Made by a program: the position numbers and the translations under genes
In this document: positions 225 to 2,593 of the stretch, piece after piece
Layout of the letters: every line of letters starts with the position of its first letter
How positions within the stretch are numbered: position 1 is the stretch's first letter
Source: Bacteroidales bacterium
Lineage (GTDB): Bacteria > Bacteroidota > Bacteroidia > Bacteroidales > UBA12170
Assembly (NCBI GenBank): GCA_021157585.1
Contig: JAGGWH010000174.1
Coordinates: forward strand, 1-32,326
Direction of reading: 5' to 3'
DNA length: 32,326 nt
Notes under the pieces: generated by a model
Told to the model about the DNA's origin: nothing
The model's database searches: none
The model's input: the letters and a program-made list of their open reading frames with translations, nothing else

Positions 225-566
225 TTAAAACAACTCTAATTGTTGGGGTGTATCGGGTTTTTCGCTCTCTTTTTTTCCATAAAACAACTCAATCATTCCA
301 AATTGCTTATCGGTAATATTTAAAATCCCCACATGCCCATTGGGTGGCAAAAAAGATTTTACACGTTTGATATGTACCTGAGCATTTTCCCTACTCGGAC
401 AATGACGTAAATAAATAGAAAACTGAAACATCGTAAAACCATCGCCAAGTAAGCGTTTCCTAAACAAACCGGCTTGCTTACGGTCTTTCTTGGTTTCCGT
501 TGGTAAATCAAAAAAAACTAAAACCCACATAATACGGTATTGGTTTAAACTGCTTAAATTATCCAA
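225..566 (-). CDS. cas2: CRISPR-associated endoribonuclease Cas2 (type II-C)
   Basis: Cas2 of 113 residues, partner of Cas1 in the spacer-integration complex. The core reads [13 protein letters not shown] (from residue 13), with the conserved Asp at position 20 at the end of the first strand of the ferredoxin-like fold, followed by the family patterns [16 protein letters not shown] and [11 protein letters not shown]. Its start overlaps the end of cas1 by eight bases, so the two are translationally coupled. A start at Met13 is also possible, but the upstream residues look like normal type II-C N-termini. The protein ends in QQLELF, which resembles a sliding-clamp binding motif. It lies last in the leftward operon, next to the tracrRNA terminator. 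Confidence 0.95.
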
Positions 567-1461
567 GTTCAGGGTATTTTATTTTTCGTATTCCTCCTTC
601 GTAACTGGCGGCTAAACTCGCTGTGGTTTGCTGTAAACCAACCATCAACGGACTTTTTTGCCCATCGATATAAATATCTATTACAGGAATCTGCAATAAT
701 TCTTTCTTTAATTCCGGTGTTAATTCACTTATCGAATCGTATTTAAGCATAATTTCCAAGACAAGCCGATCGACATAAGGTCGATATGGCTCCATAATAT
801 CGTCGGCCAAAGCATAGGCATTGTATCTATTATGATGATGAATACCCAATGTTGGCAAAAGACCGGAAGCCACCAAACTACGCGCTACTACGGCTCTTAA
901 AATAGCATATCCATAATTTAAAAGATTATTGGGTTCTGCTTCAAACCTCCCTCGCACAAAACCTTCTTGATAATCGTTAAAAAGATTTTTCCAATAATAA
1001 GCCGCTGCCCTACCCTCGTAATTTTTCGGATCGCCGGAAGCAACCTGAGTTTCCCAATACCGCATATTTTCCGTATCGAAACCATGAATATCCAACAAAG
1101 CCAACTGGTTTCTGATCTTTGCTTTAATAGTTTGTTGCCATAGGTTTTTCTTAAGCGGCTGACTCGCATTAATTTGATAACGAAACCTTTCTTGCTGCAA
1201 AGTATTGCCTTCCAAATTCAACATTAAACCCTGTGGATGATGTCTCTCGTCGCAGGTAATTAAAGCTACATTATTATGCAGTAATTTCGAAATTAAGGTT
1301 TGAGAAATCGTTAATCGGAATGCATCTAAAATGACTACTCCAATATCTTCAATTGGAATTCGAACGTCTTCCTTCTGTCTATCGGCAAAAGAAATTACCA
1401 ATTGTTTATTAGTAGTATGCAGATAGGCATCGTTACCAAAATATAGGGTTCTTTTTATCAT
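559..1461 (-). CDS. cas1: CRISPR-associated integrase Cas1 (type II)
   Basis: Cas1 of 300 residues, the integrase that inserts new spacers at the leader end of the array together with Cas2. Visible landmarks are Glu149 in [15 protein letters not shown] and the [23 protein letters not shown] segment (207-228), which carries the metal-binding His and acidic residues. The N-terminal domain is beta-rich and the length is normal for subtype II-C. The catalytic residues look intact, so it should be active. Its start codon (1459-1461) is one base from the stop of the upstream ATPase gene, and its end overlaps cas2. In ordinary II-C loci cas9 lies directly upstream; here it does not. Confidence 0.96.
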
Positions 1462-1462
1462 C

Positions 1463-2593
1463 TCAATAAGTTCGCTGCAACCAACGCATTAAAAATACAT
1501 CATACACACAAAAACTCGATCCATCTTTAGAGGCAGATTCTAAAATCATTTCCTTCTCAAGCAGGGCATCAAGTATTCGTTTAATGGTAGAGGCAGCTCC
1601 TAAATCGTATTTTCTAGAAAATTCCTGAGTATAAATTTGCGAAACACTTTCCTCTTTTGCCAAAGCCACCATAAAATTCCATTGCTTAGAAGTTATCAGT
1701 TTGCGATACTGAAAATAAACCGGCTCGTTTTCATTCAATAGCTGTAAACATTCCTTTTTTACAATATCTACATCTATCTTTCTGTAGTTATATAATCGAT
1801 TACAAATACTTTGCGTATAAAAAGTATAGCCCTTTGTCCAATCCATAAGGTAATCGATACTCTCTGTAGATATATTCCGTTTCCCTTTCTCAAAATTCTG
1901 ACGTATGAATAATTTATACTTATCAGCTTGAATGGACTCCAAATTGATAAACTGCGTGCTGGCATAAAATGGTCTTTTAGCGCTCAAAAACATTTCCATC
2001 AAGGTATGCTTTTGGCTCCCACTAAAAATAAAATTAACATGCTTAAGCTGTTGAATACACGTTCTTAAAAGTGCTTCAATATTTTTTTCAGGATAATTTG
2101 CAATTTGCTGAAATTCATCAATAGCCACCACAACAGGTTTTGATTGCAAATCGATAAACTGCAATAACTTTTGCAATGTAAATTCCTGATCACTTACCGA
2201 TTGAAAATTGAATTGCACCTGTGGAGCACCCGTAATTTCATCGAAAGAAAAAAGAGGGCGGAAGCTTCTCAGTAATTTCATAAACTTCTTCCCTACGGAA
2301 GACTTTATGCTAAATTTTTCAAGAATAGCTTCGGCCAATAACATAATAAAATCAGACAAGTTTCGACTTGAATAAATATCGACATAAACAAAATCCATAC
2401 TCTTTTCCTCTTCTAAATGTTCAAAAAAACGATATATCAAACCTGTTTTTCCCAATCTTCGAGGCGATATTAGTGTGGTATCTATGCCATTCTTGGCATT
2501 CCTAAACAATAGGTCAAGTTCTTCTTCCCTGTTGCAAAAATAACTCTTTGAAATATATTTCTTTACTAGAAAGGGATTTATGTCTTTTTTCAT
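1463..2593 (-). CDS. AAA/STAND-like ATPase (archaeal-type ATPase family) joined to cas1-cas2
   Basis: Protein of 376 residues resembling the 'ATPase domain predominantly from Archaea' family (PF01637). It has a Walker A motif SPRRLGKT (43-50, Lys49), a Walker B VVVAIDEFQQI with Asp159/Glu160, and a sensor-like FIFSGSQ (188-194). The region from about 300 looks like a winged helix (ITSKQWNFMVALAKEE followed by a recognition-helix-like segment). The family is widespread in Bacteroidota and poorly understood; members are thought to couple ATP hydrolysis to DNA or partner binding. The stop lies one base before the cas1 start and a good promoter lies upstream, so the three genes probably form one operon. 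The gene occupies the usual cas9 position. A CRISPR role is inference; chance insertion of a mobile ATPase gene is the alternative. Confidence 0.85.
   Translation of the reverse strand: MKKDINPFLVKKYISKSYFCNREEELDLLFRNAKNGIDTTLISPRRLGKTGLIYRFFEHLEEEKSMDFVYVDIYSSRNLSDFIMLLAEAILEKFSIKSSVGKKFMKLLRSFRPLFSFDEITGAPQVQFNFQSVSDQEFTLQKLLQFIDLQSKPVVVAIDEFQQIANYPEKNIEALLRTCIQQLKHVNFIFSGSQKHTLMEMFLSAKRPFYASTQFINLESIQADKYKLFIRQNFEKGKRNISTESIDYLMDWTKGYTFYTQSICNRLYNYRKIDVDIVKKECLQLLNENEPVYFQYRKLITSKQWNFMVALAKEESVSQIYTQEFSRKYDLGAASTIKRILDALLEKEMILESASKDGSSFCVYDVFLMRWLQRTY

Follow-up and report, generated by a model that had tools for sequence, protein, structure and literature searches.

The window analyzed here, by which the whole stretch of 32326 bases is meant, is the entire contig C174 of a Bacteroidales draft genome (2.93 Mb in 183 contigs, with a contamination estimate of 2.67%). 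It begins within a CRISPR array, of which two repeats, at 1–43 (cut by the contig end) and 73–119, are present; the repeat search itself gave 44-base copies at 1–44 and 77–120. Comparison with the sister locus (L015) gives a repeat unit of 47 bp, and bases 74–119 (46 bases) are identical to the sister's repeat. The array is followed by a leader, cas2, cas1 and the gene for a PF01637-type ATPase (Table 1). The ORF calls bear out the originally predicted order ATPase > cas1 > cas2 on one strand and its coordinates: the ATPase stop codon lies one base (1462) before the cas1 start, and cas1 and cas2 overlap by eight bases (559–566). The gene arrangement thus stands as described, whereas the complete tracrRNA that was described along with it does not. 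Farther along, at 19242–19640, the window carries a class A bacterial RNase P RNA.

Table 1. Features at the array end of the window, with coordinates, strand and the basis of each assignment.
Feature	Position	Strand	Basis
Type II-C CRISPR array end, two repeats and one spacer	1–119	+	Repeat search, sister comparison
Leader with terminator-like hairpin (~185–220)	120–224		Sister comparison
cas2, type II	225–566	-	ORF call, profile match
cas1, type II	559–1461	-	ORF call, profile match, motifs
PF01637 (ATPase_2) AAA+/STAND-like ATPase, 376 aa	1463–2593	-	ORF call, profiles, predicted structure
Putative promoter element, TATCTTTG	2615–2622	-	Read from sequence, before the ATPase
Operator-like imperfect inverted repeat, TTTCGC...GCGAAA	2638–2668		By eye, just upstream of the -7 element
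Putative RAYT scar, 17 codons, C-terminal part, EFSAARDYAGLRKGKLI	2799–2849	-	RAYT queries versus shuffles
DUF2007 gene (flank)	3023–3259	+	Syntenic with G009
Antiporter gene (flank)	3455–4906	+	Syntenic with G009

The adaptation genes are intact, as had been claimed. Cas1 matches the type II model TIGR03639 at 302.7 bits, Cas2 matches a type II model (Pfam/NCBIfam, PADLOC), and the conserved Cas1 motifs EGRAAAYYW (from residue 149), HHHN (from 208) and DDIMEPYRP (from 220) are all kept; the active residues of the Riemerella anatipestifer Cas1 are given as E149, H206 and E221 in the available text of PMC6008519. The two genes have changed no faster than their counterparts: polarized amino-acid changes since the split from the relative G009 number 11 on the window branch versus 12 in cas1, and 3 versus 4 in cas2. 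To judge from these counts, cas1 and cas2 do not appear to have been relaxed on the window branch, which would fit continued use without Cas9, and equally a deletion too recent to have left its mark.

In the relatives G009 and G001, a tracrRNA with antirepeat and terminator precedes cas9 and is encoded on the opposite strand. The original prediction had seen a complete tracrRNA, probably in the stretch 120–224. That stretch is conserved in the sister (L015, 199–303), and the tracrRNA reading is rejected because the sister has both this stretch and a separate tracrRNA; what was taken for a tracrRNA is probably the leader. (A second copy of the leader hairpin, 91% identical, is present in the same genome at G000:C66:39035–39069.) With the sister's tracrRNA (L015, approximately 7050–7132) as the query, the window and the rest of the genome returned the array repeat and chance-level matches only. 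A decayed tracrRNA in the gap 2594–2945 was also considered and rejected, the local alignment to the G009 flank being not significant (34 of 300 shuffles were as good, and 151 of 300 for G001).

Where, then, is cas9? There is none from cas1 to position 3023, as stated at the outset, and the genome-wide check that had been proposed gave no Cas9 above the cut-off. The single TIGR01865 match in the genome scored 24.8 bits (cut-off 100) and covers profile positions 541–627 only; it comes from a 538-aa ORF on contig C85 and involves only the HNH-like part of the model. This ORF is rejected as a Cas9; in G009, a 546-aa frame gives a similarly weak match in addition to the Cas9 of that genome. The sister's Cas9 as a query found nothing in the window's genome, which is 95.5% complete. 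As a positive control, the profile was run on 11 members of the genus, and it found Cas9 above cut-off in five, including G009 and G001. Remnants of Cas9 were sought at 1401–3100, where tblastn gave chance-level matches only (best E 0.018). Adaptation genes may also be shared between systems: according to the available text of PMC8092290, the type VI-B system of Flavobacterium columnare uses the II-C acquisition machinery in trans. The search of the window's genome covered Cas13b, and found none that could borrow the adaptation genes.

The relatives indicate what is missing. The search took in 11 genomes of a single genus, among them that of the window, and cas1 has a match in six, with an identity to the window of 88% in G009 and 83% in G001. 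Both of these share the order array-cas2-cas1-RAYT-cas9-tracrRNA, after which comes the window's DUF2007 gene; the window's antiporter gene is next in G009, and the G001 contig stops within the DUF2007 gene. In blastn comparisons, window positions 1–1461 match G009 80–1543 at 83%, and positions 2946–4761 match, on the plus strand, G009 7175–8998 at 77%, which in G009 is the DNA beyond the tracrRNA and cas9. Since both flanks match G009, 1.5 kb in the window stands for 5.6 kb in G009, where RAYT, cas9 and tracrRNA lie. The RAYT of G001 matches Y1_Tnp just below the cut-off, and the 239-aa ORF at the RAYT position in G009 has no Pfam match. The ATPase finds no match in either of these two cas9-containing relatives, G001 and G009. 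(Another locus of the genus, L019, at 8163–9367 of G004:C180, has type II-like cas1-cas2 with an unrelated 226-aa gene before cas1; TIGR01865 finds no Cas9 in the G004 genome, which is 82% complete.)

In the gap that separates the ATPase promoter from the syntenic flank, and thus upstream of the ATPase, lies a short stretch that resembles the C-terminal part of a RAYT. At the protein level, 29 of 39 RAYT queries match the gap at E values up to 1. The best of these matches has 32.7 bits, whereas 100 shuffles peak at 25.0 bits and 41 stretches from elsewhere in the window at 26.2 bits. When RAYT genes are compared with the scar as DNA, those of G001 (37 of 48 bases), L166 (49 of 65) and L240 (37 of 50) match it above all 100 shuffles, and those of G009, G003, G367 and G075 do not. 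Because the scar matches RAYT proteins, and some RAYT genes, beyond these controls, a RAYT-bearing II-C operon most likely once stood at the window locus, as far as can be read from the sequence. With the scar upstream of the ATPase, we infer an insertion point of the ATPase between RAYT and cas1, and a deletion that took the upstream part. The impression that the locus does not look decayed was therefore mistaken: cas9 and the tracrRNA are gone, and the RAYT fragment marks the deletion.

A different possibility is that cas9 and the tracrRNA are elsewhere in the cell, on a missing contig, beyond the array or in trans, and that the locus is functional. The contig does end in the array, the draft is in 183 contigs, and cas9 lies downstream of cas1-cas2 in two of 120 loci surveyed in the order. 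However, the cas9-RAYT block has left its scar at the usual place, and the genome searches for cas9 and tracrRNA came back without a trace, so that the earlier options of a cas9 in trans or beyond the array are left without support; we consider such an arrangement improbable. An artifact, in the form of an assembly chimera or a mixture of strains, might be suspected in a draft assembly with a contamination estimate above zero, and is very improbable here: both flanks are syntenic with G009 on one contig, the ATPase stop is one base from cas1, and the RAYT scar lies in the expected order and on the expected strand.

What is the ATPase that now stands before cas1? Its profile matches are ATPase_2 (PF01637), which is over the cut-off, AAA_14 and AAA_22 (Pfam/NCBIfam), and its C-terminal part is helical and winged-helix-like. 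Residues K49, D159 and E160, by position those of Walker A and B, are invariant in 38 aligned ATPases. The structure was predicted with a mean pLDDT of 92.3, and the model matches two archaeal PF01637-type ATPases over the whole chain: PABY2304 (2qen; Z 25.4, 331 aligned residues, rmsd 3.8 A) and SSO1545 (2fna; Z 24.3, 335 aligned residues, rmsd 4.1 A). Both are also found by sequence profile, SSO1545 at E 3.2e-15 and PABY2304 at E 6.1e-11. The fold is the same, with an identity of only 15–17%, and the entry names of both say ATPase and nothing further. ORC/Cdc6, apoptosome/NLR-type STAND and TnsC ATPases follow at lower Z. The protein is thus an archaeal-type PF01637 ATPase with a predicted STAND/ORC-like fold, a likeness that does not in itself give the function. 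At E values up to 0.001, the PADLOC defense models match neither the window ATPase nor those of L045 and L050. An origin as a phage gene was considered and rejected, there being no relative in viral contigs in a single-protein scan, which reaches close relatives only.

The ATPase is not a random neighbor of the cas genes. The neighborhood survey that had been called for spanned 393 genomes of the order and compared 149 listed ATPase homologues (99 genomes) with 144 listed type II cas1 genes (139 genomes, E 3.4e-60 or better), all outside the window's genome. Among the matches listed, from which weaker ones are left out, seven of the 149 homologues have a type II cas1 no farther than 8 kb away, as against 0.35 expected if placement is uniform in 3.4 Mb, and all seven are on the cas1 strand. 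The ATPase thus shows the linkage to cas loci beyond chance that was looked for as in accessory genes of the Csn2 or Cas4 kind. The original prediction had also named what would speak against it, and here the outcome is divided: two relatives indeed lack the ATPase at the corresponding position, but homologues elsewhere do adjoin cas genes.

The order was also surveyed from the side of cas1. Among 120 loci fetched, 78 read cas9>cas1 and 30 cas9>RAYT>cas1 (two of them with two RAYTs), counts in which the RAYTs are lower bounds, since a RAYT that shares more than 60 bases with cas1, as in L153, went into the cas9>cas1 class. Two read cas9>ATPase>cas1, one cas9>ATPase>RAYT>cas1, and nine showed no upstream cas9 in this first count. 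The ATPase is thus found between cas9 and cas1 in 3/120 loci of the order, and also in L045, L046 and L053. Of the nine, two are at contig edges (L144, L247) and seven have at least 5 kb of room; a Cas9 HMM run on these seven found cas9 upstream in four (weakly in L189, at 87.6 bits) and downstream in two, leaving L253 without. Across the surveyed loci of the order (L128, L144, L151–L268), cas9 and cas1 are separated by a RAYT, a Y1 transposase-like gene, in no fewer than 31 of 120.

A wider scan for the ATPase covered 84,980 species genomes, and of 132 relatives 80 loci were kept. Six of the 80 carry II-C parts, and a seventh, L043, starts in the array-end sequence of G034. In the tree of 111 of 124 ATPases (nine were left out, including the CRISPR-linked L239/L283, and four were duplicates), the window's clade comprises L044, L045, L046, L047, G319 and G034/L043; with the window included, six of its seven lineages are at II-C loci or scars, the exception being L044. 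The position differs from case to case. The ATPase is between cas9 and RAYT in L045 and L046, 0.3–0.7 kb past the array in G319 and G034, and between the RAYT scar and cas1 in the window. L047 has a tracrRNA that runs directly into one CRISPR repeat (2448–2530), and no cas gene was found on the 5.4-kb contig. (This fusion is what might be left if the antirepeat had recombined with the array and the cas operon had been lost in the process.) In the near-identical L049 (3125–4458) and L050 (5801–7134), the ATPase stands beside a II-C tracrRNA, where cas9 would begin; no cas genes were found at either, in 6 kb on each side for L050 and up to the end of L049, 0.2 kb past the ATPase. The presence of the ATPase beside a tracrRNA without a detected cas gene in two lineages suggests a self-contained gene. 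Because L047 and L049/L050 keep it without detected cas genes, the ATPase seems able to outlast them.

Such a distribution might be expected of a true II-C accessory protein, for example a helper of spacer acquisition or a sensor whose response limits itself, in which case the window would be a working ATPase-Cas1-Cas2 variant without Cas9. The concentration of the window's clade at II-C loci or scars, the co-orientation with cas1 in all seven cases, the one-base spacing, the invariant Walker residues and the unrelaxed cas1 and cas2 are all in its favor. On the other hand, the position varies between the slot next to cas1, that between cas9 and RAYT, that past the array and that before cas9; the cas9-bearing G001 and G009 show no match to the ATPase; it occurs where no cas gene is found; and 142 of the 149 listed homologues have no listed cas1 within 8 kb on their contig. 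We regard a working variant of this kind as rather unlikely. The variant CRISPR system suggested originally would agree with the presence of homologues in cas9-containing II-C loci, but the role in acquisition or signaling is left without support. The ATPase is an accessory or a passenger of II-C loci, and not a replacement effector.

A promoter had also been predicted before the ATPase, and a putative TATCTTTG element, which we take to be a Bacteroidota-type -7 promoter element, is present there, with the inverted repeat just upstream of it. In a test of such repeats on 112 of the 124 ATPases (the rest were duplicated, short or contained N), the upstream stretches of 58/112 exceeded all 100 shuffles, compared with 6/112 control stretches taken 400–520 bases upstream. 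The window's own inverted repeat scored 0 in the exact 8-mer test. The reading of it as an operator is weak, because only L045 and L046 of the window's clade were above all shuffles, and because 30 of 279 other genes (>300 aa), used as a control, exceeded their 40 shuffles as well. (Among Bacteroidota PF01637 ATPases, the upstream tandem or inverted repeats differ from gene to gene, as in L279, L061, L183 and L053, and are possible operators.) If one lineage of PF01637 ATPases were a dedicated II-C partner, it would hold cas1-cas2 under its own self-regulated promoter, and the window would be a Cas9-free module in which the ATPase aids spacer recording by Cas1-Cas2 or couples capture to some other response. 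A dedicated partnership of this sort is unlikely.

How did the present arrangement arise? Probably, to judge from the gene content and order, a recurrent II-C-linked ATPase now heads an adaptation module without an effector, left by deletion of cas9, tracrRNA and most of RAYT. The starting locus would have been a type II-C system with the order cas9-RAYT-cas1-cas2-array, which gained, between RAYT and cas1, a self-contained PF01637 ATPase gene with its own promoter and operator-like repeat. A deletion, presumably later, would then have taken the tracrRNA, cas9 and all of the RAYT except its end, leaving cas1, cas2, leader and array as an effector-less adaptation module behind the ATPase gene. 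With a single base separating the ATPase stop codon from cas1, the three genes probably form one transcript that begins at the ATPase promoter. The ATPase might bind its own operator and repress itself, the promoter now also serving cas1-cas2. Spacers may still be added, and would be unusable for interference.

What carries this deletion scenario is the synteny on two sides, the scar, the lack of detection of cas9 and tracrRNA, and the recurrence of the ATPase at II-C loci. Certain points count against it: cas1 and cas2 are unrelaxed, the scar is short and matches the DNA of only some RAYTs, the contig breaks off within the array, the draft may lack about 4.5% of the genome, and L049 and L047 are short contigs. 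Given the scar, and with no cas9 or tracrRNA found, loss of cas9 to leave an adaptation-only locus is the best fit of the four options originally put forward. Because relatives keep the block and the scar marks its place, the locus documents the passage of a II-C system to an adaptation-only remnant after the loss of Cas9. What is new is the repeated, co-oriented link of one ATPase lineage with II-C loci, which may reflect an accessory function or an insertion-tolerant, well-transcribed neighborhood.

The window shares with the type II-C systems of Bacteroidota, such as those of R. anatipestifer and F. columnare, the type II Cas1 and Cas2, the 47-bp repeat and the leader between cas2 and the array (the R. 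anatipestifer layout is given in the available text of PMC6008519). It differs from them in having neither cas9 nor tracrRNA, and in the ATPase directly before cas1. Additional genes in such loci have precedents: F. columnare has ParDE between cas9 and the array, according to the available text of PMC8092290. No report of an ATPase_2 gene in II-C loci was found in the literature searched, which consisted mostly of open-access texts, without supplements, and is weak evidence. The available texts of PMC8092290 and PMC10910872 make no mention of an ATPase_2 protein; in its main text, as available, the latter does not use "AAA" and uses "ATPase" once, for MuB. The new partners of adaptation modules given in the available text of PMC10910872 include NACHT NTPase domains, and its putative CRISPR auxiliary genes include Y1 Tpase and ParD. 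For comparison, the window ATPase is itself an NTPase of the STAND-like kind, and the RAYT is a Y1-type protein.
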